A program made the translations under genes and the position numbers. The notes under the pieces are model-generated. The model searched no databases. It had not been told where the DNA came from and saw only the letters and a list, made by a program, of their open reading frames with translations. DNA of 64,000 bases from positions 1,488,001-1,552,000 of the forward strand of contig NZ_LGRO01000001.1 in the NCBI RefSeq assembly GCF_001280565.1. The letters run 5' to 3'. Positions 18,341 through 33,558 of this stretch are shown here, piece after piece. This DNA is from Sulfobacillus thermosulfidooxidans. GTDB taxonomy: Bacteria > Bacillota > Sulfobacillia > Sulfobacillales > Sulfobacillaceae. How positions within the stretch are numbered: position 1 is the first letter of the stretch; each line of letters opens with the position of its first letter.

Positions 18341-18685
18341 CTAATCATGTAATATGCCATCCTGCCAAGCCTGATCTACTCGATTGTTCCATTCTTGCCA
18401 TGATTTTTCAGGTGGTACATGTTCAAGAATCCATGCCGCATACCACAAGGCGGCCCGAACTTCTTGTTCTGGAACATTGAGGTCCTTTGCAATAGCCTTT
18501 AAGGGTGCCAGATGTTCCAGTTGTTTTAGCAACTCTGGTATAGACCTTAAAGACCGTCTGGCATAGGGCAAGTGATCACACTTAGTTTGGCTATGCCCGA
18601 TTTCTTTAAAAATAACCCATAACGGAAATTTCGGATCCGAGCGGGTGTCGACCCAATAATCGAGACGTAAAGAAGCTTCATCCAT
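18341..18685 (-). CDS. Hypothetical protein with DUF433-like C-terminal helices (114 aa)
   Basis: Start at ATG 18685, with AAGGAG 8 bases upstream. The N-terminal half is rich in charged and aromatic residues (LRLDYWVDTRSDPKFPLWVIFKE). The C-terminal half is helical, with LKAIAKDLNVPEQEVRAALWYAAWIL, which resembles the terminal helix-turn-helix of DUF433 proteins, a family often found as antitoxin-like DNA-binding modules. No toxin gene is adjacent. The family link is tentative. Confidence 0.5.
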   Translation of the reverse strand: MDEASLRLDYWVDTRSDPKFPLWVIFKEIGHSQTKCDHLPYARRSLRSIPELLKQLEHLAPLKAIAKDLNVPEQEVRAALWYAAWILEHVPPEKSWQEWNNRVDQAWQDGILHD

Positions 18686-18763
18686 ATTAATACTCCTTCC
18701 CTTTCCTGTTCGCGTTTCCAAGATAGACGAGTAAGTGGCGTAAGGTAATGTTTTGCAGCCAGA

Positions 18764-18802
18764 TTAAAACGAGCCGAATGATAACAACGATCATTCGGCT
18801 CG
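18764..18802 (-). terminator. Terminator at the end of the sHdr operon
   Basis: On the minus strand CGAGCCGAATGAT pairs perfectly with ATCATTCGGCTCG around a 7-base loop and is followed by TTTTAAT. It lies 15 bases after the GAF gene and marks the 3' end of the long leftward transcript. Confidence 0.85.
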
Positions 18803-18816
18803 GAGTTCCAGGGCGA

Positions 18817-19269
18817 TTAACTTAATAGCGAGGCCATTTGACCTAGCCATTCTACTGCCACTAAATCGATTCCGTCCACCTCAGGTGATTGACAGTCCAA
18901 CACCGCATAGAGATGGTTATCACGGATGAGAGGAAGTCCAACTTCGCACTTAGTTTCCGCAATCGCGGCAATGTAACCGGGAAATTTCTTAATGGACCCG
19001 ACTATTTGCACCGCACGTTCAGCCGCGCAGGATCCCACAACCCCTTGGCCCCACAAAATAAGAGATGGCGCTGGGTCCCCATAAAATGGCCCCAGGATTA
19101 AGTCATGTCCTAAATGAAAGACACGGTAAAATCCGATCCAACACCAAGCAGGCCACAATTGACGTATTTGGGCTACAACATTCGCCATTACGGCAACATC
19201 ATCAGGTCCCTGATTCTTCCACTGGGTAATCCGGTCAATTGCCTTTTGGTAATCAGCAAGTTCAGCCAT
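18817..19269 (-). CDS. GAF-domain protein, free-methionine-(R)-sulfoxide-reductase-like with altered cysteines
   Basis: 150 aa, the size of fRMsr (MsrC/YebR). Family landmarks are GFYR, LGPFYGDPA, GQGVVGSCAAE, FPGYIAA and VLDCQSPEVDGID. In active fRMsr the catalytic Cys sits in HIACD and a resolving Cys in GVCG; here these positions are A102 and V79, while cysteines occur at C81, C108 and C126. Either the redox chemistry uses another Cys arrangement or the domain is a small-molecule sensor. It is the last gene of the sHdr operon, 56 bases after dsrE, which suggests a role in sulfur metabolism or redox sensing rather than methionine repair. Confidence 0.75.
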   Translation of the reverse strand: MAELADYQKAIDRITQWKNQGPDDVAVMANVVAQIRQLWPAWCWIGFYRVFHLGHDLILGPFYGDPAPSLILWGQGVVGSCAAERAVQIVGSIKKFPGYIAAIAETKCEVGLPLIRDNHLYAVLDCQSPEVDGIDLVAVEWLGQMASLLS

Positions 19270-19325
19270 CGACTCATCCTCATTCGTCTCACATCTTTAA
19301 TTAGGCCGACGATTATTGAACTCCG

Positions 19326-19706
19326 CTAAAAGGTAATCACCACATCAGATTCCAGCGCCATTTCATTTACAGCACTGCCGCCAACCACACCTTCTGTTTC
19401 AATCAAATCCTCCAAGGTACAATCATTTAAGTCCAAACTGGGAGCACACACATAAAATTTCACCCCAGCATCGCGAGCTTGATCAATGAAAAACTGTAGC
19501 CGCGCCCCATCACCACCTTCTTTGACCGTTAACTCTTCGGCGACTCCGCGCTTTAAAAGAGCCGTCGCTCGAATGGTAAAGACCATCGACACATCATGAT
19601 CCATCAAAGCGGCAGTTGTTGCTAAAAAGAACGGGGAAGCGGCACGGTAAGCGACTTCGGGTCCCGTAGTTAGGATGTAAAGATATTTCTTCACGTCTGA
19701 TGACAT
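19326..19706 (-). CDS. dsrE: DsrE-family sulfur-carrier protein
   Basis: 126 aa. The fold pattern of DsrE/DsrF is clear: YLYILTTGPEVAYRAASPFFLATTAALMDHDVSMVFT at the N-terminus and KFYVCAPSLDLND at the conserved cysteine region. C87 matches the sulfur-accepting cysteine position of DsrE-like proteins and C96 is a second one nine residues on, so a disulfide or trisulfide switch is possible. DsrE proteins relay persulfide sulfur with TusA, which is encoded next door. Cytoplasmic. Part of the sHdr operon. Confidence 0.85.
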   Translation of the reverse strand: MSSDVKKYLYILTTGPEVAYRAASPFFLATTAALMDHDVSMVFTIRATALLKRGVAEELTVKEGGDGARLQFFIDQARDAGVKFYVCAPSLDLNDCTLEDLIETEGVVGGSAVNEMALESDVVITF

Positions 19707-19733
19707 AATGGACTCCTTTCTTCGTTTCCTTGA

Positions 19734-19976
19734 CTATTTCATACGGCGGATTAAAAACCGAAAGACTTCGCCTTGTTGTTCTGCCAGGAGCAGTTCATGA
19801 CCCGTGGACCGTGCCCAAGCTTTGAAATCAGCCATCGATCCGGGATCTGTACTCAGAATTTCCACTACCTGTCCCACTTCGACGCTAGTGATACCTTTTT
19901 TCGCTCGAATAACAGGCATCGGGCACTTGAGCCCCGATGCATCAACTTTTAAATCGGCTTCAACAGGAGTACTCAT
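19734..19976 (-). CDS. tusA: TusA sulfur-carrier protein
   Basis: 80 aa from the ATG at 19976 (AAAGGA about 10 bases upstream; an in-frame GTG at 19985 is too close to the RBS). The hallmark CPxP is present as C18-PMPVIRAKK, and the rest follows the family: VGQVVEILSTDPGSMADFKAWARSTGHELL. TusA carries sulfane sulfur as a persulfide on the CPxP cysteine; in sHdr organisms it is regarded as the donor to the sHdr machinery. Confidence 0.95.
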   Translation of the reverse strand: MSTPVEADLKVDASGLKCPMPVIRAKKGITSVEVGQVVEILSTDPGSMADFKAWARSTGHELLLAEQQGEVFRFLIRRMK

Positions 19977-20010
19977 GCGTTCCACATCCTTTCATGGATT
20001 ATCAAAATCT

Positions 20011-21087
20011 TTACAGTACAGGAGATTGTTGGGTGCTTTCAGCACGCCGAAAACATTCCACGATATCCGAGGCGACAACCCCGGGTATCGACACCTTTTC
20101 GAATAACTGGCGAGATGCTTCCTCCACATTGTGTTCGTTCACTAGCCGTCCACAAAGATACCGTTGAAAATCTTCCACCGCTGAACTATCCCATGGATCC
20201 ATGAAGAAATCCCCACTAAAGTTGACATCGTCAAAAACCCCGTCGTTCACACGATATATTAACCGAAGTAGTCCACCGGGTGCTTTAAAGACGCCTTCGT
20301 GCAGATATACGCCCGAGCGAATCTTAATTCCGGATTGAAATAATCCTCTTTCACCCCGGTAGACAAACTCGGGATCAAATAATTTCAACGCGTATTTCTC
20401 TATATCCGCCTCTTCTTCAGATGATAACTGATCAGCATGCACGGGCTCGTTTAGTAATCGGGAGAAGTTGTCTACGAGTTTGGCGACAACCATCTGGCGT
20501 TCAGGCGGTTCGCCAAGTTCCTGATTAATTGTGGTCATATACTCGCTGAGACTCGAAATCATTTTATCGCGAAATTTTTCGGACGGGACCTTTAAGACCC
20601 GAGCCATTAATGCCACATTAAAGTCAAATAACAAGCTCCCCACTATGACGGTAGTCGTTCCCATTGTCGATGCGCCAGTTCCCCCAATCTTTCGTGGCCC
20701 TACCACAATGTCATTGACTGGGCGAAACTGCGCATTAATTCCCATTTGCTGGTACGTTTCAATCGGAGCCTTGAGAATTTCTCGGTACATATCCTCGACG
20801 GGTCCCCGTGGCTTCGGCAATAACAAATGCCAAAAAACTTGACCGTGATCGAGATAAACGGCACCACCTCCTACAAATCTCCGACCCACTAATATTTGAT
20901 GGGTCTCACAAAATTCGCGGTCGATTTCTCGACTGGCCAGTTGATGATAACCAACACAAACATAGGGACGGTCAGGACTAACAGTCACCAGTGTTATTTC
21001 GTCGTGGGGTTTCAAACGCTGGGCTAATGCATGATAGACGGCTTGAGACATTTCCCGCTTGACTGTTCCTAAATCGAGATACCGCAC
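20011..21087 (-). CDS. lplA: Lipoate-protein ligase for LbpA (sLplA type)
   Basis: 358 aa. The LplA core is present: the lipoyl-AMP binding motif RRFVGGGAVYLDHGQ (residues 69-83), the lysine in PRKIGGTGAS (K133) and NDIVVG. A C-terminal accessory domain (about residues 235-330) follows, containing FQSGIKIRSGVYLHEGVFKAPGGLLRL, the accessory-domain module that in some lineages is the separate LplB. Encoded right after the two lipoate-binding proteins, so it most likely lipoylates these rather than 2-oxoacid dehydrogenases. Dedicated ligases of this kind have been described for sHdr clusters. Start at ATG 21087. Confidence 0.9.
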   Translation of the reverse strand: MRYLDLGTVKREMSQAVYHALAQRLKPHDEITLVTVSPDRPYVCVGYHQLASREIDREFCETHQILVGRRFVGGGAVYLDHGQVFWHLLLPKPRGPVEDMYREILKAPIETYQQMGINAQFRPVNDIVVGPRKIGGTGASTMGTTTVIVGSLLFDFNVALMARVLKVPSEKFRDKMISSLSEYMTTINQELGEPPERQMVVAKLVDNFSRLLNEPVHADQLSSEEEADIEKYALKLFDPEFVYRGERGLFQSGIKIRSGVYLHEGVFKAPGGLLRLIYRVNDGVFDDVNFSGDFFMDPWDSSAVEDFQRYLCGRLVNEHNVEEASRQLFEKVSIPGVVASDIVECFRRAESTQQSPVL

Positions 21088-21102
21088 CGTGTTTCCCCCA
21101 TT

Positions 21103-21585
21103 TCATAAATCATCATCAGAGTCGCTCGTTGTGGTCTCTTCAATCGGGGCGCAACGCATACAGGTAATCCCTTCTTCTTGAAGCTTTTCCCGGTAAATGG
21201 CCGCGACATCTGAACCTTTTATCAGATGTGGACTCAGCCACTCACTCCCTGGTTGCAGTTCGGCTACCCATCCTTCTCCATAGGGATCGCGATTAATCAT
21301 GTTGGGATCGCTCAAAACGATCTCATTCACACGCACAACCGTACCATCGACCGGCGCAGGAAATGGACCTACCCACTTCGCTGATTCGATAGTCGCCACA
21401 TTTTTTCCAGCTTTGACGGCTTTTCCAGGCCGTCCTCTCACATGAAGAATTTTTCCTGCGCGCGTTTGAGCAGGATCGGTCATTCCAATACGCAATATGC
21501 CTGAAGGCAAGCTCTCAATCCACACATCACGTTCCACGTCAAACCATAAATGATCGGGGAATTCACATGCAAATACTTGTGACAC
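21103..21585 (-). CDS. lbpA: Lipoate-binding protein LbpA (second copy), GcvH-like
   Basis: 160 aa from a GTG at 21585, preceded by GGGGGAGA; an in-frame TTG at 21609 lacks an RBS. The GcvH fold is evident: LRIGMTDPAQTRAGKILHV, IESAKWVGPFPAPVDGTVVRVNE, NRDPYGEGWVAEL. The lipoyl-lysine is K70 (ESAKW), flanked by the WVG typical of LbpA rather than glycine-cleavage GcvH. A C-terminal extension contains CMRC and ends in an acidic tail (SDSDDDL). Its gene follows the other lbpA after 11 bases. In sHdr organisms LbpA is required for thiosulfate oxidation and carries sulfur intermediates on its lipoyl arm. Confidence 0.93.
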   Translation of the reverse strand: MSQVFACEFPDHLWFDVERDVWIESLPSGILRIGMTDPAQTRAGKILHVRGRPGKAVKAGKNVATIESAKWVGPFPAPVDGTVVRVNEIVLSDPNMINRDPYGEGWVAELQPGSEWLSPHLIKGSDVAAIYREKLQEEGITCMRCAPIEETTTSDSDDDL

Positions 21586-21596
21586 GTCTCTCCCCC

Positions 21597-22034
21597 CTAT
21601 TTTTGACAATGAATCCCGTCTTGTTCTAATTTTTCACGGTATGAAGCCACGCCCGTTTCTCCCGTTGCTAAGGCTTTAGCGTCCTCATCCCAGTTGGTAG
21701 GCTTGACTTTTAGTAGCCAGCCTTCTCCGTAAGGATCTTCATTGACTAATCCGGGATTAGCTTTAACGGCTCCATTGACCTCTATCACCTCCCCTGCCAC
21801 TGGGGTCGGAATAGATCCCACCCATTTTCCACTCTCTAGTGTTCCGCCACTCTTGCCACGGGCCAATGTTTTACCCGCGGATTTTAGGTTAACGACGATA
21901 ATCTTGCCAGCCAAACTTTGGGCCACATCGGTCAATCCGACAAGGACGACATCCCCCTCCGGTTTAGCCCATACATGTTTTTCGATCCAGTAATAACGAT
22001 CTTCAGGTATGTTACACCCCTGTACCTCAGCCAT
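21597..22034 (-). CDS. lbpA: Lipoate-binding protein LbpA (first copy), GcvH-like
   Basis: 145 aa. GcvH-like order: YYWIEKHVWAKPEGDVVLVGLTDVAQSLAGKI, then LESGKWVGSIPTPVAGEVIEVN with the lipoyl-lysine K70, then NEDPYGEGWLLKVKP. The lysine motif ESGKWVG is LbpA-like. The C-terminus ends GIHCQK with one Cys where the second copy has CMRC. No glycine-cleavage genes (gcvT, gcvP) are nearby, supporting an sHdr role. Confidence 0.93.
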   Translation of the reverse strand: MAEVQGCNIPEDRYYWIEKHVWAKPEGDVVLVGLTDVAQSLAGKIIVVNLKSAGKTLARGKSGGTLESGKWVGSIPTPVAGEVIEVNGAVKANPGLVNEDPYGEGWLLKVKPTNWDEDAKALATGETGVASYREKLEQDGIHCQK

Positions 22035-22053
22035 GACGTTCTCCTCCTTGATT

Positions 22054-24051
22054 TCATTTCATAGCGACGGCTGTTTCAGGAACAAGCAGTCCCACGGCCT
22101 GAGCCAACAATTCTGCGACATCGACCACCTTGATGCGGTCTTCATTTCCCGTACTTTGCACGGCCGCCGAAAACATCGACATGTCTTTAGGACACGCCAC
22201 CACAAAGTAGTTCACATTGGGTAAAGCGACGGCTTCGCGAATGCGGTTGTCGGCTGGACGCTCTTTCACTCCCACCTCTTCCATCCAAATCCTGCCACCG
22301 CCAGCGCCACAGCAAAAACTGTTAGGACCATGCCTCGGCATCTCCACCAATTCCACGCCCATTTTTTCCAACAATTGCCTGGGAGCGTCAAAAACCCGGT
22401 TCCAACGGCCTAAATAGCACGGGTCATGATAGGTGACACGAATATCCAAAGGGGCTGGGGACAACCGTCCTTGTTCGATCAAATCTAAGAACGCTTGGGT
22501 ATAATGTTTTATGGGTTTCTCAAATCCAAATTTGCGATATTCGTTTCGCAGCGCGTTAAATGAATGCGGATCCGTGGTGAAAATCTGGTTGTATTGGGCC
22601 TCTTCCAACCATTTCAGATTTTTATGTGCCAAGGTCTCAAATAATCCGTATTCGCCCATACGCAAAGCCTCATTGCCCGCATTAGACTCCCCTTCATAGA
22701 GAATCCCGAAATCGATTCCCGCGCGTTGCAACAGTTGCGCCACCAACCGCGAGAGCTCTTGAAGCCGGGGATCATAAGACGCAAAATCGCCAACAAACCA
22801 TAGCCAATCCACTGGTTCCTTGCGTGCATCTTTGATAGCTACGTCGAGCCCTTTCGTCCACGCCGGTCGTTTACGCTGCGGCTGGCCAAAAGAGTTTCCC
22901 TGACGATCCCAACCCACAAGCACCTTTTGACTGTTCTTATCCACATCGCCATCTTCAAGTAGAGCCGCACGCAAACCGGCAATCTTGGGAACGTGTTCAA
23001 TAAATACGGGGCAAGCTTCCTGACAAGCTCCACAGGTTGTGCATGACCATAATTCTTCAGCACTAACGACGCCTCCCGCCAATGGCTCGGGCTCTGCACC
23101 CGATAATTCCCGGCGTAAGGCATCTCGCAGTTCCAAAATGACCATTTTTGGCGATAGTGGTTGCCCAGCAGCATGGGCCGGACAGACGGCTTGGCATCGT
23201 CCACACTCCGTGCATGTAAAAAGGTCTAATACATCTTTCCAGTTCATGTCCTCGAATGTCCGAATGGCCATCCCTTCGTCCTCTTTCATGGGCGGCACAA
23301 GTTCCCCATGGGGCCGCGTCTTATGCAAGAAGATACTGGGAACAGCCAAAAAGATATGGAGATGTTTTGAGGTCGGTAAATATGCCAAAAATGCTAACAC
23401 CATACCAATATCCAAAAGATAGCCCAAAATGTAACCAGTTTCCGCAACGCTTGGATGATAAGCAAGACCTGTACTCATCCACACATGGCCTAACGCGTAG
23501 CCCAAAAAGCCCCAGGGATCCAACTGGGCATGCACATGATACAAATACGGCGCTGCGAAGGGATAAAAGGATTCATGAAGAATAATGCCAATCATGATGA
23601 TTCCAATCATCCCCAAGATAATGTAACCATCTTTCTCATCCGACCCGTGATAACGTTCCGGTTTTATCACAGCTCTTTGATAAACGGCCAGCACCAATCC
23701 CACTAAAACCAAGACCACCCACAGGTCAACAGCAAAGTCTAACGGCGCATCCAAATGGAATCCAGGCACAAAAACTTGGCCAATGGCGTCAACGATATCA
23801 ATAAACAACACCACGAATCCACTGAAAATAAAGAAATGAAGAACGCCAGATAACCGAAGACGCAATAATCTTTTATGGCCAAAGACCTGGCCCAGCATAA
23901 AGCTGAGACGGCTGGGCCAGTTGTCCAAACGGTTAGTCGAGCGAGCTTTTTGCATTACCCGAAAGATGGGGAGCATCCGAATAACGAAATAAACGCTTGC
24001 CGCGACAAACATCAAGATGGTTAAGGCCATTAAGATGTCTTGGCCACTCAC
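22054..24051 (-). CDS. EMO-type membrane FeS oxidoreductase (EtfAB:menaquinone oxidoreductase; HdrDE-like)
   Basis: 665 aa. The N-terminal 250 residues form about six membrane helices of NarI/HdrE type with several helix-embedded histidines suited to b-heme ligation (LHFFIFSGF, HESFYPF, HVHAQL, LGHVW). A soluble HdrD-like part follows: two [4Fe-4S] motifs (CTECGRCQAVCP and CTTCGACQEACP) and CCG domains, the last with HDPCYLGR and FCCGAGGGR. This architecture matches the EtfAB:quinone oxidoreductases called EMO, which accept electrons from EtfAB and reduce menaquinone. etfB and etfA are immediately upstream (1 base gap to etfA), so the partner assignment is strong. It would connect the sHdr system to the respiratory chain. 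Confidence 0.85.
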   Translation of the reverse strand: MSGQDILMALTILMFVAASVYFVIRMLPIFRVMQKARSTNRLDNWPSRLSFMLGQVFGHKRLLRLRLSGVLHFFIFSGFVVLFIDIVDAIGQVFVPGFHLDAPLDFAVDLWVVLVLVGLVLAVYQRAVIKPERYHGSDEKDGYIILGMIGIIMIGIILHESFYPFAAPYLYHVHAQLDPWGFLGYALGHVWMSTGLAYHPSVAETGYILGYLLDIGMVLAFLAYLPTSKHLHIFLAVPSIFLHKTRPHGELVPPMKEDEGMAIRTFEDMNWKDVLDLFTCTECGRCQAVCPAHAAGQPLSPKMVILELRDALRRELSGAEPEPLAGGVVSAEELWSCTTCGACQEACPVFIEHVPKIAGLRAALLEDGDVDKNSQKVLVGWDRQGNSFGQPQRKRPAWTKGLDVAIKDARKEPVDWLWFVGDFASYDPRLQELSRLVAQLLQRAGIDFGILYEGESNAGNEALRMGEYGLFETLAHKNLKWLEEAQYNQIFTTDPHSFNALRNEYRKFGFEKPIKHYTQAFLDLIEQGRLSPAPLDIRVTYHDPCYLGRWNRVFDAPRQLLEKMGVELVEMPRHGPNSFCCGAGGGRIWMEEVGVKERPADNRIREAVALPNVNYFVVACPKDMSMFSAAVQSTGNEDRIKVVDVAELLAQAVGLLVPETAVAMK

Positions 24052-24052
24052 G

Positions 24053-25003
24053 CTACTCCCCCCTTAGTCGTTCCGCTAAGACCGGCATTAATTCCAACAT
24101 ATCCACGGTTGTACCGTAATGCGCGACATCCATAATAGATGCATTTTCATCGGTGTTAACCGCAATAATCAAATCGGCATCGCGCATTCCTTGGAGATGT
24201 TCGGGAGCACCGGAAATACCCAACGCGAGATACAATTTAGGCTTGACAGTTTGTCCTGATTTGCCTACTTGACGTGCTTTAGGAAGCCATCCGGCATCCA
24301 CCACAGGACGGGAACAACTGACCACGCCGCCTATAGCTTCAGCCAATTCTTCTACCAGGGGCAAGTTATCGGGACTTTCAATACCCCGTCCCACACTAAC
24401 CAAAATGTCTGCTTTGGTGATATCCACATCACCTTTTTCGGGTTCGATAGTTTGCAAGACACTCATGGTTTGGGGCACGTCAAAGGATAGGACTTCCACT
24501 TCTGGGTCACCTGGTTCGTTATAGGCAGCCCATGCGCCGGGCATAACCGTTAGCACGGCCCCTTGATCCGGAACACGGATCTCTGCCATGAGCTTACCAG
24601 CAAATACCTGGCAAGTGGCCACGAGTTCATCGCCATTTATGACCAGATCACTACAATAAGCAATCAGAGGAAGGTTTTCCCGGGCAGCCACCCCTGCCCC
24701 CAAATCAAGTCCTAAAGTCGTATTAGACATCAAGGTTATATACGGGTGGACTTGCTCAATGATGCCGCTTAAAACCTTTTCATAGGCCAAAGGATTGTAT
24801 TGGGTCAACAGGGGATCCGATACCGCTAAAACCCGGTCCACCGCGAGATGTCGGAGGTGGTCCTCTTGGTCGGGTCCAAATCCCACTGCCACCGCAGCAA
24901 CACCCAATTGAGTGGCCAATTCGCGCGCCTTGCCGACCAGTTCCCTGCTAGATTCGGTAAATCCTGTTTCACCATTTTCCATCATCACCAATATCGGCCC
25001 CAT
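24053..25003 (-). CDS. etfA: Electron transfer flavoprotein alpha subunit
   Basis: 316 aa, full length. The C-terminal FAD-binding domain is well conserved: VSVGRGI, RPVVDAGWLPKARQVGKSGQTVKPKLYLALGISGAPEHLQGM and AVNTDENASIMDVAHYGTTVD. Forms a heterodimer with EtfB and carries electrons from a dehydrogenase to a membrane quinone reductase. Starts 5 bases after etfB with AGGAGG upstream. Because the flanking genes are sHdr subunits and EMO, its donor is plausibly the sHdr complex. Confidence 0.95.
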   Translation of the reverse strand: MGPILVMMENGETGFTESSRELVGKARELATQLGVAAVAVGFGPDQEDHLRHLAVDRVLAVSDPLLTQYNPLAYEKVLSGIIEQVHPYITLMSNTTLGLDLGAGVAARENLPLIAYCSDLVINGDELVATCQVFAGKLMAEIRVPDQGAVLTVMPGAWAAYNEPGDPEVEVLSFDVPQTMSVLQTIEPEKGDVDITKADILVSVGRGIESPDNLPLVEELAEAIGGVVSCSRPVVDAGWLPKARQVGKSGQTVKPKLYLALGISGAPEHLQGMRDADLIIAVNTDENASIMDVAHYGTTVDMLELMPVLAERLRGE

Positions 25004-25008
25004 AACAT

Positions 25009-25776
25009 TTACCTCCTCACTAAATTCCGTTCTTGCAGAATCTCGATAATGCGATCTGCCACTTCCTCCACATCACCATCGATCATTTCGGCATGGCCAG
25101 CTGCCACGGGTTTGTAAAACCGGCGAATTTCCAATGAAGGCACTTCTGGCATAGCCATCTCAACCTCTTCAATTTGTGCCGATTTGGCCACCTGACGAAC
25201 CTTTGCAATTGAAGCATAGCGAGGAGGCTTTCGGGCGGCTTGTATTCCAATGACAGCCGGTGTCGGTGTTTGAATTTCGGCGACGACACCCCCGGCATAT
25301 TCCTGACGCAAGATTACGGTGTCCCCGGTGACATGCACTTCGGTGACAACGGAAGCGTGAGGCCATCCTAGAATCCCTGCCACGAGTCCCGGTATCTGAC
25401 CGTCAATATCATCAATCGCTTGCACACCCGATAAGACCAAATCAAAATCCTGTTGGCGAATGTAATCACTCAAAATTTGAGCGCGACTGCGGTTAGAGAG
25501 AGAGGGATCAAAATCCCCGACCAATTTGACGGCATGATCAGCACCTTTAGCCAACGCTGTATAGAGCATGTTGTCGCTATCGCCGGTATCGACAGTGACC
25601 GCAGTCACCTCTGCACCCGATTCTTCTTTAATCAAAAGCGCCTCTTCTAAAGCTTGATCATCCCATTCACTAGGCACATAGCTCATATCGTCATAGAGGA
25701 TTTCCCCTGATTCCTCGTCCAGCGCAATGTCTTCCACTAAATCTGGTACAGCTTTTAGCAAAACCGCTATCTTCAT
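25009..25776 (-). CDS. etfB: Electron transfer flavoprotein beta subunit
   Basis: 255 aa. N-terminal MKIAVLLKAVPD and the AKGADHAVKLVGDFD, LVLSGVQAIDDIDGQIPGLVAGILGWPHAS segments are standard for EtfB; the signature-like VEMAMPEVPSL corresponds to the recognition-loop region. AAGGAGG lies upstream of the ATG. Located between the fused HdrC2B2 gene and etfA. Fatty-acid beta-oxidation genes are not nearby, so this EtfAB is likely dedicated to sulfur oxidation. Confidence 0.95.
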   Translation of the reverse strand: MKIAVLLKAVPDLVEDIALDEESGEILYDDMSYVPSEWDDQALEEALLIKEESGAEVTAVTVDTGDSDNMLYTALAKGADHAVKLVGDFDPSLSNRSRAQILSDYIRQQDFDLVLSGVQAIDDIDGQIPGLVAGILGWPHASVVTEVHVTGDTVILRQEYAGGVVAEIQTPTPAVIGIQAARKPPRYASIAKVRQVAKSAQIEEVEMAMPEVPSLEIRRFYKPVAAGHAEMIDGDVEEVADRIIEILQERNLVRR

Positions 25777-25801
25777 ATCCGTGTTCGTCCTCCTTGTCGG
25801 G

Positions 25802-27091
25802 TTAAAGAGTCATCACAAGATCATCAATTAAGCCCATGCTGTAAGCCACAAGTTCAGCGATATCCATAACGGCAAGCTTTCCGGCATTACCAGTTGACTT
25901 CACCGCATCTTCAAAGCGAGGCACTTCATAGGGACAAGTTACAGCTAAAATTTCGGCACCATATTCGACGGCTTCACGCACGCGTTTTTCTGACAGCCGC
26001 TGACTCGAGTAGTCGCGGGTAAAACTATCCAGCCACATGCCGCCACCACCTCCGCCGCAGCAATAAGATGTTTCGCGGCAGTGACCCATTTCAACCAGTT
26101 CAGCACCAGGCAAGGCATTTAATAATCGCCTAGGTGCCTCGTATTCACCATTGTGGCGTCCTAAGTAGCATGGATCATGGAACGTGATTCGTTTGGGAAT
26201 GTCCCGGACAAAGGCCAGATCGGGCAGGCGTTCTGAGAGGTATTGGGTATAATGCTGTACTGGCCATTCTCCACCCATTTGGGGATATTCATGGAGAAAA
26301 GCGTTATAGGCATGGGGATCTGTGACGACAATCTGATGAAACGTATATTTCGATAACGTCTTAATGTTGTGTTCCGCCAACATCTCAAATAATCCCCGTT
26401 CGCCCGCCATCCGTTGGGAATCTCCCGCGCATTTCTCCTCGGTCCCTAAAATGCCGAAATCGACGTGGAGAGCATTAAAAATTCTCGCGAGTGCAACCGA
26501 GGCTTCTTTGCCACGGGGATGATAGGCGGGATAACATTCGACAAACCACAACACGTCAACCGGAGCTTTTTTCTGCGACATAATGGGCACGGGAACACCC
26601 GCCGATTTTGTCCACTCCGCTCTTTTACGGGGAGATTCTCCGATGGGATTGCCATAGCGTGCCGTGTTTTCGAAGGCCGTTAACAACTCTTCTGGCGCTT
26701 TGCCTTGTAAGACGGCTTGTTCTCTCACTGCAGGCATAATCTTGATCATGTTTACTTCTTTGGGGCATACCCGTAAACAGTTACGGCACGTCGTACATAA
26801 CCACAAGTCAGGCGAGTCGATTAAGGAAGCTCCCAATTGGGTACGGCGAAATATTTTTCGGGGTGAATAATCTCCTACAGTATCCACCGGACAAACCGCA
26901 GTACATTTACCGCATTGATAGCAATATCCGAGAGACTCCGCGCCCGGTATGCTGGTGATTTCGTCTAACACGGACAAATCATATTCGGATATCGCACGCG
27001 GGACAAACATCCGATTCCATGAACCAGACAACTCGACCCCGTCGACAATTGCAACGTCTAATTCAATGGCTTTTGCTTTTTGCAACGACAT
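25802..27091 (-). CDS. sHdrC2-B2 fusion (HdrD-like FeS protein with CCG domains)
   Basis: 429 aa. Residues 57-67 (CYQCGKCTAVC) and 99-109 (CTTCRNCLRVC) bind two [4Fe-4S] clusters as in HdrC. The C-terminal 250 residues are HdrB-like: a degenerate first CCG region (WFVECYPAYHPR) and a complete second one (HDPCYLGR ... SYCCGGGGGG). In many sulfur oxidisers these parts are separate genes, hdrC2 and hdrB2; here they are one polypeptide. Its start overlaps shdrH by 29 bases and has GGGAGGG as RBS. Expected to be the second catalytic half of the sHdr complex. Its similarity to the C-terminal part of the EMO gene suggests common ancestry. Confidence 0.88.
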   Translation of the reverse strand: MSLQKAKAIELDVAIVDGVELSGSWNRMFVPRAISEYDLSVLDEITSIPGAESLGYCYQCGKCTAVCPVDTVGDYSPRKIFRRTQLGASLIDSPDLWLCTTCRNCLRVCPKEVNMIKIMPAVREQAVLQGKAPEELLTAFENTARYGNPIGESPRKRAEWTKSAGVPVPIMSQKKAPVDVLWFVECYPAYHPRGKEASVALARIFNALHVDFGILGTEEKCAGDSQRMAGERGLFEMLAEHNIKTLSKYTFHQIVVTDPHAYNAFLHEYPQMGGEWPVQHYTQYLSERLPDLAFVRDIPKRITFHDPCYLGRHNGEYEAPRRLLNALPGAELVEMGHCRETSYCCGGGGGGMWLDSFTRDYSSQRLSEKRVREAVEYGAEILAVTCPYEVPRFEDAVKSTGNAGKLAVMDIAELVAYSMGLIDDLVMTL

Positions 27092-27770
27092 AACCCTCCC
27101 ATCTTGGAATCCCTAAAAGGCTAGCCACCACTTTAGGAAAAGGCGGCAAGACCTGGGTAAATTCATCGGTTAAACGCCATGATGTCATGGTAAAAAGATA
27201 AACTGCGTAAACCATGGCCAATGCCACGAGATGTCGGTAAGGAGTGTCGATCCAAGATAACCGGTGCCAGCCGTCTAGTATCTGTTCCGTAAACTGTCCT
27301 GCCTGATTCATAGCCCCATAAAGGTTGCGAAGATCTGTTTTTAGACAACTGGGATCGCTTACAATCAAAGCCACAGCACCGGTTTGACTGTCAGCCCGGT
27401 ACATCCACCGGGACCACCACACATAATCATCAGGATAGGAATTGGCGAGCCAAAATGTTGCCCATTCCCAGAGCCAAGCGGGAGCCTGATTTTGGACCAA
27501 GATATCGACAACCTGATTTGGACGGTGCTCAACAGCTTTTCGAATTTGCTGTTCTGTCTCAATCCATAATCCGTGTTGCTCGGGTTTGATGCGAGCAGTA
27601 GCCGGTACTACGCGCCAACAGTAGACATCATCATATAGGGCTGTCATGACGGATTGGGAGCGAGTGATTAAAACATTGTTCCAGCCCCGGAAGTCAGTTT
27701 CCGAGATAAACGATTCTGCTTTATCCAAAAATTCCGCCATCGCTTCGGCATCAATGACGAGGGTGTTCAT
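27063..27770 (-). CDS. sHdrH, conserved hypothetical protein of sHdr operons
   Basis: 235 aa, located between hdrA and the HdrC2B2 gene exactly where sHdr operons carry an uncharacterised gene. No cofactor motif is visible; the sequence is Trp-rich (WRVVP, WLWEWATFWLANSY, WWSRWMYR) with a hydrophobic stretch near the C-terminus (HLVALAMVYAVYLFTM). Translation is coupled to hdrA by a TAATG overlap at 27768-27772, and the 3' end overlaps the next gene. Assigned by position and size; sequence similarity needs a search. Confidence 0.7.
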   Translation of the reverse strand: MNTLVIDAEAMAEFLDKAESFISETDFRGWNNVLITRSQSVMTALYDDVYCWRVVPATARIKPEQHGLWIETEQQIRKAVEHRPNQVVDILVQNQAPAWLWEWATFWLANSYPDDYVWWSRWMYRADSQTGAVALIVSDPSCLKTDLRNLYGAMNQAGQFTEQILDGWHRLSWIDTPYRHLVALAMVYAVYLFTMTSWRLTDEFTQVLPPFPKVVASLLGIPRWEGYVVAKSKSH

Positions 27771-28831
27771 TAGACTTCGAGAGTTAATCGGTTCAGAATT
27801 CCGACGGCCTTAGCGGCGGCTGCCGCACCCATTGACACAGAATCCTCAATGTCTTTAGGACCTGCCGCAGCACCAGCCACAAAAATCCCCGGGACAGGCG
27901 TAGAAACGGTATCTAACGGTCCCCCAACCACTTGAAGAAAGCCGTGGTCCTCCCGAGGAATCTGAAAAATCCGGGACATTTCTACGGTCCCTTTAGAAGG
28001 CTCCATTCCTACGGACAAAATAACCAAGTCCATCAACACTTCCATGGGACGTCCCATCGTCGTATCTTCGCCTTTAATCAACAATTTATCGCCCTTACGA
28101 ATGATTTCGGTAACAATGCCGCGGATATAGTTGACTTTATACTCCTCCTGCGCTTTCCAATAAATCTGATCTTCCCAAAAGCCATACATTCTCATATCGA
28201 TATAAAAAATGAACACCTTGGCATTGGGAAGCATCCGCTTAATTTCGATGGATTGTTTGGAAGCAATTCCACAACACACCTTCGAGCAATATTTATTTCC
28301 GATCTGCCGGTCCCTCGATCCTACGCACTGGATAAATGCCACCCGTTCAGGAGGCAAACCGGTCGATGGGCGAACAATTTTTCCCTCCTTAAACATTTTT
28401 TCTGCATCGACCAAAGTAATGACATCGTCATATTCGTAATACCCATACATTTGAGTTTCGCGACCCGGATCGAAATGTTGGAAGCCGGTCGCCACGACGA
28501 TGGCGCCCACTTCTTCCACCGATTGCGCCCCATCAGCGCTCTCTAATGTGACATGAAAGGCTCCGAGATTGCCTTCACTTTTCACGACGCGGGTATTCAA
28601 TCGCACATCGACCGCAGGATTATTTCGTACAGCATCCAACATGTGTTCCATCGCGTGTTCTGTTTCTTGCAAATCCGGGGTCAAGCTCGCATAGGACGCA
28701 TACGGAGTGCCCCCTAATTGATCCTTCGTTTCAATTAACATGGCACGTTTCCCTAGCTCCGCAACGGTACGCGCCGCTTCAAGTCCTGCCGGACCAGCAC
28801 CCACGATCATGACCGTATCCGCTTTTCCCAT
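27770..28831 (-). CDS. hdrA: sHdrA flavoprotein
   Basis: 353 aa. An FAD-binding Rossmann motif MIVGAGPAGLEAA opens the protein. The HdrA signature CVGSRDRQ...YCSKVCCGIASKQ follows at about residues 180-205, then a second NAD(P)/FAD-like region and the C-terminal GIFVAGAAAGPKDIEDSVSMGAAAA. It lacks the N-terminal thioredoxin-reductase-like extension and ferredoxin insertions of methanogenic HdrA, as expected for sHdrA. The flavin is thought to gather electrons from sulfur oxidation by the sHdr complex. It lies 43 bases after hdrB1. Confidence 0.93.
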   Translation of the reverse strand: MGKADTVMIVGAGPAGLEAARTVAELGKRAMLIETKDQLGGTPYASYASLTPDLQETEHAMEHMLDAVRNNPAVDVRLNTRVVKSEGNLGAFHVTLESADGAQSVEEVGAIVVATGFQHFDPGRETQMYGYYEYDDVITLVDAEKMFKEGKIVRPSTGLPPERVAFIQCVGSRDRQIGNKYCSKVCCGIASKQSIEIKRMLPNAKVFIFYIDMRMYGFWEDQIYWKAQEEYKVNYIRGIVTEIIRKGDKLLIKGEDTTMGRPMEVLMDLVILSVGMEPSKGTVEMSRIFQIPREDHGFLQVVGGPLDTVSTPVPGIFVAGAAAGPKDIEDSVSMGAAAAAKAVGILNRLTLEV

Positions 28832-28874
28832 GGATTCTATCTCCTACCTTTCCTTTTCCGACCGACGTTTCAAT

Positions 28875-30074
28875 TTAGAGGACATGCTCCCACGTCAGGT
28901 ATTCCATCTCACCATGCTTAATTTTTTCGACATCTGCTTCAAACTCAGCCCAAGCTCTTTCCACGTCAATCCCCATCTTGTGCAATAAAGGCCGATAGTC
29001 TACCGCATGCCAATGGAGCTGACACACCCGGAAAGGATGGGCCCCCACCGCCAGCGCGGCAAATTGCGACTCAGACATCACCGGAACCCCTACGTTACGC
29101 CCATGAGCTTGCGCCGCAAATTGACTTTTGTCGAGAGAAGTAACACATCCTGTGTCATGTGTGAGGACAACGTCGGGATTGGCTTCCTGCTTCATAACTT
29201 CAATCTTTCTCAATGTGGCAAAGCTACGGGTAAAGTCCCGTTGCACCAAAATGTGGCGAAACCCAAATCCACAACAGTCATACCATGTTGAATAATCAGC
29301 CACCTGAGCGCCAAGTTCTTGGACAACAGCCGTTACTGCCGCTGTGCGTTGGCCTCCATAAATCTCGGGATCGTAAATAGCGTCACCGCTTTGCAATTTG
29401 TAATAATGACAGGCAGGGTGAACTGTGGCAGTAATCTTAGACAGATCGAATTGCACCCGTTCTGATAATTGCTTGCGCACTGCATACATCCACTCGCTGT
29501 AATGAACAATTTCTTCCGGCATCACAAAAGGACGGCCCAATTTTTCAATGATGGCCCGGACTTGCCGGCGCAACTTCGCATCATGCACCAATTCATGACG
29601 GACCTCTTTGTAATGGCCAAAACTGGTTCCGCAATGGATGAGAGGATAATAACCCGTTTCATAGGCTGCCGAGAAATTTCGCATGGCTACGGCTGCCTGA
29701 GCAGCCTGATTGGAGGTTGCGGAGGCGTAATAATTCCATGCTGTACACGAAGTTTGATCGCGGGGATCGAAATAATCAAATCCTAACAAGCGGTTAAGCC
29801 AGAATATTGACGTGGAATATCCAGGAATGTGCCCACATTGCCCACAACTTTTATGATGCCAGGTGTGTTCCAAAGGGATTTTCTTTTGTCGGCCAAATTT
29901 TGTCGGGGCAAGATAATAAGGTTCTGGCACGGGTTGCACGATCCACTCGCCTTCCCGTCCAAGTTCCCAGATGGCTTCGCGCAAATCCTCATCGCGAACC
30001 GTCTCCGGATCCCGTTCAAAAACACGCGATGTCTGGACTTTTGTGCCGGCCACAGGAATATCTATCGGTTCCAT
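28875..30074 (-). CDS. hdrB1: sHdrB1 subunit (CCG-domain FeS protein)
   Basis: 399 aa from the ATG at 30074, which has GGGAGGAG 7 bases upstream; a longer in-frame start at 30107 has none. Cysteine clusters typical of the sHdrB1 branch are seen: HHKSCGQCGHIPGY, DQTSCTAWNYY, then ATVHPACHYYK and YDCCGFGFRH with THDTGCV downstream, i.e. the CCG cysteines for a noncubane [4Fe-4S] site. HdrB subunits are the disulfide/sulfur-acting subunits. In sHdr, B1 pairs with C1 around an A dimer. Confidence 0.92.
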   Translation of the reverse strand: MEPIDIPVAGTKVQTSRVFERDPETVRDEDLREAIWELGREGEWIVQPVPEPYYLAPTKFGRQKKIPLEHTWHHKSCGQCGHIPGYSTSIFWLNRLLGFDYFDPRDQTSCTAWNYYASATSNQAAQAAVAMRNFSAAYETGYYPLIHCGTSFGHYKEVRHELVHDAKLRRQVRAIIEKLGRPFVMPEEIVHYSEWMYAVRKQLSERVQFDLSKITATVHPACHYYKLQSGDAIYDPEIYGGQRTAAVTAVVQELGAQVADYSTWYDCCGFGFRHILVQRDFTRSFATLRKIEVMKQEANPDVVLTHDTGCVTSLDKSQFAAQAHGRNVGVPVMSESQFAALAVGAHPFRVCQLHWHAVDYRPLLHKMGIDVERAWAEFEADVEKIKHGEMEYLTWEHVL

Positions 30075-30118
30075 CACATTCTCCTCCCTCATCAATCTAA
30101 TCGTCACACCATTCGGAA

Positions 30119-30805
30119 TTATTCAGTCGGTAATCCGCTCTCTTCTAAGGCATCGTCCATAATTTCCTCCATGATGTCATGAAGGCCCTCATCCAGCTCT
30201 CCAATCATGTCAAGCGTTCCCGTCATTTTCCAAATCGCATACAGTTCATGCATCGTACGTTCTTCGACTTGCCATGAAAGACCCGTTGTGTGTAATGTTT
30301 CTGGAGGCAAAGCCCGGCGCCACACATCTAAATTCTGCGAAACCGCTTTGACCTGGGGACCCCAGTCGGGAAAAGCATCTTCTTGCAGCATATCAGGTGA
30401 CACTTGGGTTCCAGTAGTCATGATCTTGTAAATAATGCGAGTATATCCGGCCAACGCTTCTTTGGTTGTTCGTAAACCGTTTTTGACGGCCACTTCACGC
30501 ATAATCGTGATGAGACCGCCAGGACTATTTTGGCGCGGGCACCGGTTGCAGGAGAAACATTGGGAACAATTCCATACATCGTCATTTAACTGCTCATAAA
30601 AAAGTTCAACATCTTCGCGGGCTAAAGTTTGTGCAATTTTACGCGGTGAAAAATCATAGAAGCGCGCCGAGGGGCAAGCTGCCACACAAATACCACATTC
30701 ATAACAGCCATACAGATACGTTTTATAACGGGGATCCGCTTTTACCTCGTCGAATAACCGTTGCTTTTCTTCTAACGCGACCTCAGCATAACGATCAGAG
30801 GGCAT
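30119..30805 (-). CDS. hdrC1: sHdrC1 subunit (di-[4Fe-4S] ferredoxin-like)
   Basis: 228 aa. First cluster motif C34-xx-C37-xx-C40-xxx-C44-P (CYECGICVAACP). The second has shortened spacing, C80-xx-C83-xx-C86-xx-C89-P, one residue fewer than canonical before the last Cys. A helical C-terminal half of about 130 residues follows, rich in acidic residues at the end (GELDEGLHDIMEEIMDDALEESG). Carries electrons between HdrB1 and HdrA. RBS AAGGAGG before ATG 30805. Confidence 0.92.
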   Translation of the reverse strand: MPSDRYAEVALEEKQRLFDEVKADPRYKTYLYGCYECGICVAACPSARFYDFSPRKIAQTLAREDVELFYEQLNDDVWNCSQCFSCNRCPRQNSPGGLITIMREVAVKNGLRTTKEALAGYTRIIYKIMTTGTQVSPDMLQEDAFPDWGPQVKAVSQNLDVWRRALPPETLHTTGLSWQVEERTMHELYAIWKMTGTLDMIGELDEGLHDIMEEIMDDALEESGLPTE

Positions 30806-30831
30806 TATTCTACCTCCTTAGCCTCTATACC

Positions 30832-31299
30832 TTAGACAAATAGAGAAATCTTGGCATCGCGGGCAAAATCCAAAAAGGTCGCGGCCCCTACCACATCCTC
30901 CACCTCAGGAACCAAATCCTCGCGTTTTACGCCGAGAACATCCATAGACATTTGACACGCCACCATGTGTACACCCAGTTCCTTGGCTTCCGACACAAAT
31001 TCTCTAATTGACATGACATGAGAGTTAGCAAACTGATTTTTCATCATCGAGGACACCATTTTTGTCCCAAATGGCACAACACCTGCCACTTTTGCTAACG
31101 CTGGCATTCCTGGATTGCCGGCAATAGATACGGACAGATTATCAATTTTGTCCTTATGGATGACGTCGAGGCCCCAAAACGTAAAAAACAACATACATTC
31201 CATATCAATGGCGGCAGCAGCCGTCGCCAATATGAACGGGGGATAGGCCATATCCAAACTGCCCTTTGAGACAATAATGGCTAAACGGTCTTGTTCCAC
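30832..31299 (-). CDS. dsrE2: DsrE2-type sulfurtransferase
   Basis: 155 aa from a GTG at 31299 with AAGGAGG 8 bases upstream. The DsrE/DsrF-like fold is evident (RLAIIVSKGSLDMAYPPFILATAAAAIDMECMLFFTFWG), and the second conserved cysteine region is HMVACQMSMDVLG. C35 and C115 are the two candidates for persulfide transfer; C115 in the VACQMSMD context is the family's conserved position. DsrE2 is regularly linked to TusA in sulfur oxidisers. First gene of the sHdr operon, immediately behind the promoter. Confidence 0.92.
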   Translation of the reverse strand: MEQDRLAIIVSKGSLDMAYPPFILATAAAAIDMECMLFFTFWGLDVIHKDKIDNLSVSIAGNPGMPALAKVAGVVPFGTKMVSSMMKNQFANSHVMSIREFVSEAKELGVHMVACQMSMDVLGVKREDLVPEVEDVVGAATFLDFARDAKISLFV

Positions 31300-31364
31300 G
31301 AGATTTCCCTCCTTTATCACTCTGATCGCCTATGTCTTATTGTCTAGTTCTTTAGACTGATCTA

Positions 31365-31393
31365 ATGATATAGTGTTTAAAGACAAAATACAA
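31365..31393 (-). promoter_or_regulatory. Promoter of the sHdr operon
   Basis: On the minus strand TTGTAT (31388-31393) and TATCAT (31365-31370) are spaced by exactly 17 bases. A 5-bp inverted repeat TTAGA-CTGA-TCTAA (31352-31365) abuts the -10 box, at the transcription start, where a repressor could bind. Assignment by pattern only. Confidence 0.5.
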
Positions 31394-31502: not shown

Positions 31503-31871
31503 GTGAAAACGCTGTCAGTAAGCCTTTTTCGACTAGATGAGTGGGTTCCTGGATTTTCCGAAATATTAATTGCAGTCAACCAATCGTTGCGCAATATTAA
31601 CCGTGGGAAAATGGATTTTTTACCTTATAGTAAAACCATTGAATCATTTGAATGGTTTATGGAAGCTCTATTAACACCGCAAGGCGAAAACCGTCCCCCG
31701 GCAGTCGGCCATTGGCAAATACGGATCACGCACTGCCATGATCTGCCCGATATCCTTTTACAAGGAAAATCCCGCAATAATGAAGAACGCGGCCTGTTAG
31801 TTTTTTATTGCCCGGATTCTCCTTGGCAAGTCCAGGCATTACAGTGGCCCGAGACTCACCCGGAAGAGTAA
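31503..31871 (+). CDS. Hypothetical protein divergent from the sHdr operon (122 aa)
   Basis: Starts at GTG 31503 with GAGGAGAGG about 7 bases upstream; an earlier in-frame start at 31470 lacks an RBS. Soluble protein with mixed alpha/beta composition, no recognised motif, and histidines/cysteine in ITHCHDLPD. Shares a 200-base regulatory region with dsrE2, so it may be co-regulated with sulfur oxidation. Function unknown. Confidence 0.55.
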   Translation: MKTLSVSLFRLDEWVPGFSEILIAVNQSLRNINRGKMDFLPYSKTIESFEWFMEALLTPQGENRPPAVGHWQIRITHCHDLPDILLQGKSRNNEERGLLVFYCPDSPWQVQALQWPETHPEE

Positions 31872-32226: not shown

Positions 32227-33558
32227 GTGAACGTGTTAAACCATCGCGTAGTGATAATTGGAGGCGGACCTTCCGCTATCGCAGCCGCTCTTGAAGCGAA
32301 AAAATTTACCCATGATATCGTCATGATATCGGCTGAACCTGTTGGAGGAAATGCCGTTTTACACAGCTTAGTTCCTAGCAAAGCGTTAATCGAGGCAGCC
32401 CATCATCGACAATATTTCACCCGCTTGGGGGCTGACCCCGATGTCATGACCCTTTCTCAGGTAATGCATCTCCAACAAGAACAGATAAAAACTCTTGTAG
32501 AAACGACTCAAAAGGCATTAAATCCAGTGCAAATCGTATCCGCCAATGCGCATTTGGAAAAACATGACGGGGTCATTCATGTTGTGACCGATTCCCAACA
32601 GCATTTTGTCGGCGACACCGTCATCATTGCTAACGGATCCCGCCAACGCCTCATTCCCGGCGTTAAGCCGGACGGCCAGAACGTGCTCATTCCTCGAGCA
32701 TTCCACACCCTAAAGAGCATTCCCCGGTCTTTAGCCATCATTGGTGCAGGAGCCACAGGTCTTGAGGCGGCATCCCTATTTGCGCACTTCGGCAGTCAAA
32801 TCACGCTCTATACTCCCCTTCCCGAATTATTGCCGCAATATTCCCCAACCCTGCGCCACATCTTCACCAATCATTTGAACGATTTGGGCATACAGATGCA
32901 ATTTAACCGGCGGGTCACATTGCTCGCGCGAAATGACGAGGGAATTATGATTCAATGGAATAACCCCGAAACCGGCGAAATAGGACAGAATGTTCATCCC
33001 ACGATATTTCTTGCCACCGGACGCGAAGGCATGTGGACAGCGGATGAGTTGGTTCATCTTGGGTTTCATGTCGATCCACAAGGGTTTTTTATCACTGATG
33101 GGATAGGACAAACCAATATTCCGCATGTTTATGCCGTCGGTGACGCTCAAGGCCGTCCTCTCTTAGCAAACAAAGCATTGTGGCAAGGAGTCCAAGCTGT
33201 GCGCCATGCCTTTGATCACTCAGTTACCACTCCTCCCCAATTCGTGGAAGCCATTTACACCATACCAGAACTGGCACGGTTCGGAACGGTAGATGAAGAC
33301 CATTTGGAGATTTGGGAAGCCAAAATAGACCATCCTTTGATGTACAAACCGTTTTTGGTTGGCCGTGAACCGGGCCTTCTTCGAGTTTACACTCACCATG
33401 ATCATATTGAGGGAGCTGAAGCCATAGGCACTCAAGCCGCAGATGTTGTCAGCCTCTTGGCTATGGTCAGTGCTCAGGTACCATTGCCGAATTTAATCCA
33501 GAATGCGGCGGCGAGTCCCACCATGTTGGAATGGCTACAACATCTTACGCGTATTTAA
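32227..33558 (+). CDS. Dihydrolipoamide dehydrogenase-like flavoprotein lacking the redox disulfide
   Basis: 443 aa starting at GTG 32227 (GAGGTG upstream). FAD motif VVIIGGGPSAIAAALEA, NAD motif LAIIGAGATGLEAAS and VYAVGDAQGRP are intact, and the length matches Lpd. But the GGTCLNVGCIPSKAL active-site motif reads GGNAVLHSLVPSKAL: both cysteines are replaced (A43, L48). The C-terminal HPT...E motif reads SPTMLE, so the catalytic His is also lost. It cannot perform normal disulfide chemistry; an NAD(P)H:flavin or transhydrogenase-like function is possible. Divergent from the sHdr-lbpA operon, raising the idea that it meets lipoyl-LbpA. Ends at a strong terminator. Confidence 0.8.
   Translation: MNVLNHRVVIIGGGPSAIAAALEAKKFTHDIVMISAEPVGGNAVLHSLVPSKALIEAAHHRQYFTRLGADPDVMTLSQVMHLQQEQIKTLVETTQKALNPVQIVSANAHLEKHDGVIHVVTDSQQHFVGDTVIIANGSRQRLIPGVKPDGQNVLIPRAFHTLKSIPRSLAIIGAGATGLEAASLFAHFGSQITLYTPLPELLPQYSPTLRHIFTNHLNDLGIQMQFNRRVTLLARNDEGIMIQWNNPETGEIGQNVHPTIFLATGREGMWTADELVHLGFHVDPQGFFITDGIGQTNIPHVYAVGDAQGRPLLANKALWQGVQAVRHAFDHSVTTPPQFVEAIYTIPELARFGTVDEDHLEIWEAKIDHPLMYKPFLVGREPGLLRVYTHHDHIEGAEAIGTQAADVVSLLAMVSAQVPLPNLIQNAAASPTMLEWLQHLTRI

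Follow-up and report, generated by a model that had tools for sequence, protein, structure and literature searches.

Fifteen genes of Sulfobacillus thermosulfidooxidans form a leftward operon that encodes a complete type II sHdr–LbpA system. This system very probably acts as proposed, with a sulfur relay, oxidation by sHdr and electron transfer from EtfAB by way of EMO to menaquinone. The operon lies in a 64,000-nucleotide stretch of DNA (the window; positions 1,488,001–1,552,000 of the main contig of a 3.83-Mb genome). Neither its kind nor its occurrence in this genus is new, and its layout is that already described. Type II sHdr has been defined by a single syntenic cluster that unites shdrC1B1AHB3 with etfAB (Commun Biol 2024, PMC11582611), "Group III" hdr–lbpA clusters have been described in Actinobacteria and Firmicutes (eLife 2018, PMC6067878), and Justice et al. 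2014 (PMC4378227) reported an "hdr gene cluster II" from every Sulfobacillus genome. Because the cluster has been on record in Sulfobacillus since 2014, its presence here is unsurprising. The operon confirms, for a bioleaching genus, a gene arrangement for sulfur oxidation that was already described, and it yields three testable additions: EtfAB as a dedicated type II partner, a natural experiment in ligase sharing by the two sHdr systems and a conserved GAF protein.

Architecture, class and conservation of the operon

All 15 open reading frames between 18817 and 31299 lie on the minus strand, with intergenic gaps of −29 to +56 bp, as the initial annotation had described. Pfam and NCBIfam profiles support 14 of its 15 family names, the exception being HdrH, and the gene that it called a fused hdrC2B2 is shdrB3. 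The features of the locus, in the direction of transcription of the operon, are as follows.

31503–31871, plus: divergent conserved neighbour gene, adjoining dsrE2 at some 22 loci within the order
31365–31393, minus: promoter TTGTAT-N17-TATCAT, conserved in the genus
31342–31357, minus: operator candidate GTCTAAAGAACTAGAC, directly downstream of the −10 element; block partly conserved in the genus
30832–31299, minus: dsrE2 (DsrE/F/DrsH-like), first gene of the operon; PF13686, E = 7e-46; GTG start at 31299
30119–30805, minus: shdrC1, Fe–S electron carrier; Fer4 and HdrC profiles, CX2CX2CX3CP
28875–30107, minus: shdrB1, proposed catalytic CCG subunit; PF02754 and HdrB profile
27770–28831, minus: shdrA, FAD/Fe–S flavoprotein; HdrA profiles, CVGSRDX8CSKVCC motif
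27063–27770, minus: shdrH, conserved helical protein; position and orthologues
25802–27091, minus: shdrB3, fused C2–B2-like subunit and type II marker; two Fer4 motifs and a CCG domain
25009–25776, minus: etfB; PF01012, E = 3e-26
24053–25003, minus: etfA; PF00766 and PF01012, EtfA tree
22054–24051, minus: EMO-type membrane oxidoreductase; N-terminal helices, two Fer4 motifs, CCG
21597–22034, minus: lbpA1; GCV_H, lipoyl lysine in ESGKW, Cys7 and Cys143
21103–21609, minus: lbpA2; GCV_H, ESAKW, Cys15 and Cys150/153
20011–21087, minus: lplA, lipoate:protein ligase with C-terminal domain; PF21948, PF10437, TIGR00545
19734–19985, minus: tusA sulfur carrier; PF01206, E = 6e-24, CPMP motif
19326–19706, minus: dsrE, sulfurtransferase-like; PF02635
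18817–19269, minus: GAF gene, relative of free methionine-R-sulfoxide reductase (fRMsr) without its essential cysteines; phmmer and 25-row alignment
18770–18802, minus: intrinsic terminator behind the GAF gene; 13-bp stem and T-run, the strongest in the region
18341–18688, minus: conserved neighbour gene behind the terminator, on the opposite side of the locus in other genera

For dsrE2 we preferred the GTG at 31299, which follows the ribosome-binding site AAAGGAGGG, over the longest-ORF start at 31320. The promoter and the strong terminator first proposed as the boundaries of the operon both held up: the −35 element, 17-base spacer and −10 element of the promoter recur in all five other loci of the genus that cover the region, and the terminator is the best that the region contains. 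The promoter is absent from the list of a consensus scan. A regulon for the GTCTA-N6-TAGAC palindrome was rejected, its strict form occurring at one other genomic site, the same count as for the reversed control. Other genera of the order (L076, L077, L095, L097 and others) have a palindromic ACACCGGTACCCGTACCGGTGT / ATACCCGTACC behind the −10 element ahead of dsrE2; the genus of the window carries a different block at this site. We take this palindrome to resemble a CsoR/CstR-type operator.

The cofactor motifs are intact across the operon: C1, B3 and EMO carry CX2CX2CX3CP, B1, B3 and EMO have a CCG domain, HdrA has its cysteine motif, TusA has CPxP, and both LbpA proteins have the lipoyl lysine. 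Cysteines close to the N and C termini (C7 and C143 in LbpA1; C15, C150 and C153 in LbpA2), which GcvH lacks, mark the two carriers as LbpA. All genes of the operon are under purifying selection (dN/dS of 0.008–0.15). The operon contains no lipoate synthase gene, and the genome holds two copies of HdrA.

The genes shdrC1, B1, A and H and the fused B3 stand in one syntenic cluster with etfAB, and the type II label first given to the operon thereby agrees with the published definition. Compared with type II sHdr (PMC11582611) and Group III (PMC6067878), the defining parts are identical, with two or three lbpA genes. With hdr gene cluster II (PMC4378227), the operon has in common the hdr subunits, etfAB and many of the cluster I subunits, and the long six-helix CCG "HdrC" beside etfAB in that cluster corresponds to EMO here; the text consulted mentions neither a GAF gene nor the loss of a ligase alongside a type I ligase.

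HdrH, for which neither Pfam nor NCBIfam returned a match, owes its identity to its position and to orthologues in about 50 loci (24-row alignment). Its AF2 model is helical (pLDDT of 90.5), and a Foldseek search with it returned nothing significant. Structural alignment with VIA-align gave a Z score of 6.8 to Ogg (HhH-GPD) glycosylases, below the level trusted for helical proteins, with all other rows at or below 2.8; at this weak Z, 158 residues align with 3fhg at 4.2 Å and 168 with 3knt at 4.0 Å.

A synteny search, proposed with the initial annotation, recovered the same gene set in 27 relatives of the order and orthologous clusters in other phyla. Because the set recurs in these 27 relatives, with etfBA and EMO inside the operon in the loci that cover them, its association is not one of chance. 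The etfBA–EMO block follows shdrB3 in the genus and its near kin and follows dsrE–GAF in other genera, and it lies inside the operon in every locus of the order that covers it, even where it has been relocated. Relatives of shdrB3 within the order are 75–98% identical. Orthologous clusters are present in Chloroflexota, Planctomycetota, Bacteroidota, Calditrichota, Myxococcota and Alicyclobacillus. In Alicyclobacillus tolerans (L109), HdrC1, B1, A and B3 are 80–87% identical to those of the window, but EtfB, EtfA and EMO are just 41–45% identical, which suggests that the core was transferred or the electron branch exchanged; an lpl–lbpA–lpl cassette follows this operon. The Bacteroidota clusters are of type II and occur in metagenome-assembled genomes of Saprospiraceae and relatives (L111, L112, L116, L124 and L126). 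To our knowledge, Bacteroidota are not usually counted among sulfur oxidisers.

The EtfAB–EMO branch and the proposed pathway

The operon had been proposed to carry its own electron branch, and synteny, the EtfA tree and the presence of further etfAB and EMO genes in the genome all back this proposal. The gene first called an EMO-type oxidoreductase can be specified as a CCG protein with N-terminal membrane helices: a simple hydropathy scan gives five helix-like stretches, and the protein has two CX2CX2CX3CP motifs and CCG. We take an EMO to be defined by N-terminal membrane helices, two [4Fe–4S] motifs and a CCG domain, a definition that draws in part on PMC4378227. The predicted role of this protein is the reduction of menaquinone from reduced ETF.

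EMO and EtfAB generally serve acyl-CoA dehydrogenases, and EtfA and EtfB of the operon resemble many solved ETFs, as might be so if they were general beta-oxidation proteins merely located in the operon. A role in beta-oxidation only was also what the initial annotation had named as fatal to its proposal. We give this reading hardly any credence. A second etfAB at C1:765 kb and a second, paralogous EMO at G000:C1:746k indicate that housekeeping versions exist elsewhere in the genome. In a maximum-likelihood tree of EtfA, all 45 sHdr-linked sequences, from Bacillota, Chloroflexota, Thermomicrobiota, Planctomycetota, Bacteroidota, Calditrichota and Myxococcota, fall into one group with 100/100 support, together with two sequences from non-sHdr loci (L132 and L133), whereas the housekeeping EtfA of this genome and of its relatives lies outside. 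The retention of the block inside the operon after relocation, in the loci that cover it, likewise speaks against a beta-oxidation role. The EtfAB branch of the operon therefore looks dedicated to sHdr.

The closest solved structure to EtfA is a bifurcating EtfA (5ol2_A, 187 bits), which raises the alternative that the operon EtfAB is electron-bifurcating and yields low-potential ferredoxin along with menaquinol. The bifurcating flavin, however, sits in the EtfB subunit, and EtfB scores 128 bits to the non-bifurcating ETF 1o94 (1o94_C) against 78 bits to bifurcating EtfB; moreover, we found no gene for a ferredoxin or NAD partner in the operon. Given that the nearest solved structure to EtfB is non-bifurcating, simple electron transfer is the likelier mode, and we regard bifurcation as very unlikely.

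In the proposed pathway, DsrE2, DsrE and TusA would deliver sulfane sulfur to LbpA1 and LbpA2, which serve as lipoylated carriers, and the sHdr proteins (C1, B1, A, H and B3) would oxidise the LbpA-bound sulfur, probably to sulfite. Electrons would then pass to the dedicated EtfAB, on to the membrane-bound EMO and finally to menaquinone. LplA would add the lipoyl group; where a genome also has a type I cluster, the ligase of that cluster could probably substitute for LplA. The genetic tests that we found, gene deletions in Hyphomicrobium, concern type I sHdr only (PMC6067878, PMC10332631), and for this reason we infer the substrate and direction of the type II system, whose predicted activity is the oxidation of sulfane sulfur to sulfite.

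Published expression data lend some weight to a different assignment, in which the substrates of sHdr are organic thiols, disulfides or sulfur freed in starved or iron-grown cells, and the system is not a main route of sulfur oxidation. Six hdr genes of S. acidophilus TPY gave more mRNA on FeSO4 than on elemental sulfur (PMC5114278). In Thermomicrobium roseum, starvation raised expression of a similar cluster 45-fold; that study showed no sulfur substrate and proposed thiol oxidation (PMC6776052). The S. acidophilus contrast, however, is between iron and elemental sulfur and not with thiosulfate or tetrathionate, and TusA, DsrE, DsrE2 and LbpA are the hallmarks of the proven sHdr–LbpA pathway. 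We consider the thiol or starvation role unlikely and favour sulfane-sulfur oxidation.

A type I cluster and the fate of the operon ligase

The operon had been called the strongest system in the window; it is indeed complete, but that claim could not allow for a complete type I sHdr cluster in the same genome, 0.58 Mb away (G000:C1:2.094–2.104 Mb; L004:2152–11688). A type I cluster has previously been reported for S. thermosulfidooxidans. The genes of the cluster at L004 run in the order ligase, dsrE, tusA, lbpA, divergent dsrE, hdrC1, B1, A, H, C2, B2 and lbpA, and it adjoins hypA/hypB-like hydrogenase maturation genes. Type I sHdr, here and in Hyphomicrobium denitrificans, shares C1, B1, A, H, LbpA, ligase, TusA and DsrE with the operon but has separate C2 and B2 and lacks EtfAB and EMO; within this genome, HdrA of the two types is 45% and HdrB1 54% identical.

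Several relatives have lost the ligase of the type II operon. Between lbpA2 and tusA, G001 and G005 (S. benefaciens AMDSBA1) retain only degraded ligase fragments with stops; in G002 and G006, this interval of 250–330 bp gave no ligase match; and the operon ligase is likewise missing from G008 and G035. All six genomes carry a type I ligase elsewhere. Across the 27 genomes of the order, loss affects six of the ten with a type I ligase and none of the 17 without one (Fisher p = 0.0007, for rows that are related), and a by-eye count on the EtfA tree requires at least four separate losses. As every loss of the type II ligase falls in a genome that has a type I ligase, the simplest reading suggested by these gene distributions is that the type I ligase may also lipoylate type II LbpA. 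Cross-species activity reported for these lipoate ligases (PMC10332631) is consistent with such sharing. In three of the ligase-loss genomes (loci L085, L087 and L088), dsrE2 is degraded to a non-coding state, yet the promoter of the operon ahead of it has been kept. G008 has further ligase-like genes downstream of its operon. An lpl–GcvH–lpl cassette occurs at G000:C1:3018468–3020889, and in L081 and L095 a cassette of this kind comes immediately after the type II operon.

The GAF protein and neighbouring genes

The last gene of the operon encodes a GAF protein that matches fRMsr structures in phmmer searches (E = 1e-17 to 1e-18). It shares the GAF fold with fRMsr by sequence but lacks the three cysteines of that enzyme, the corresponding motifs having changed from IAC to IAA, from GVC to GVV and from PAC to PAP. 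A canonical fRMsr, with VAC and IAC kept, is encoded by a separate gene (G000:C1:2782667). Of 26 relatives in the order with a located dsrE, 25 carry such a GAF gene behind it, as does Alicyclobacillus tolerans, and a profile search of 27 sHdr loci outside Bacillota found none.

A dN/dS of 0.11 in the window pair indicates purifying selection on the GAF gene. Its products are 18–25% identical between genera, and no cysteine is conserved across the order; this fast divergence and the absence of a conserved cysteine make a ligand-binding or structural role likelier than an enzymatic one. We also considered thiol chemistry, and persulfide carriage by the four cysteines of the window protein is unlikely because these residues are not retained outside the genus. 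The GAF protein may be an unrecognised accessory component: a conserved non-enzymatic subunit, derived from fRMsr, that together with the divergent partner gene may sense or handle a sulfur intermediate in the type II systems of Bacillota. Our search of mainly open-access literature found no account of a GAF protein with sHdr, a weak negative.

The divergent gene at 31503–31871 has a counterpart within the operon in Alicyclobacillus tolerans, and a low-confidence model of its product gave no fold match. Near the divergent promoter, positions 32227–33558 on the plus strand encode a flavoprotein that resembles dihydrolipoyl dehydrogenase but lacks the CxxxxC redox cysteines, carrying NAVLHSLVPSK at the site of this motif in active relatives.
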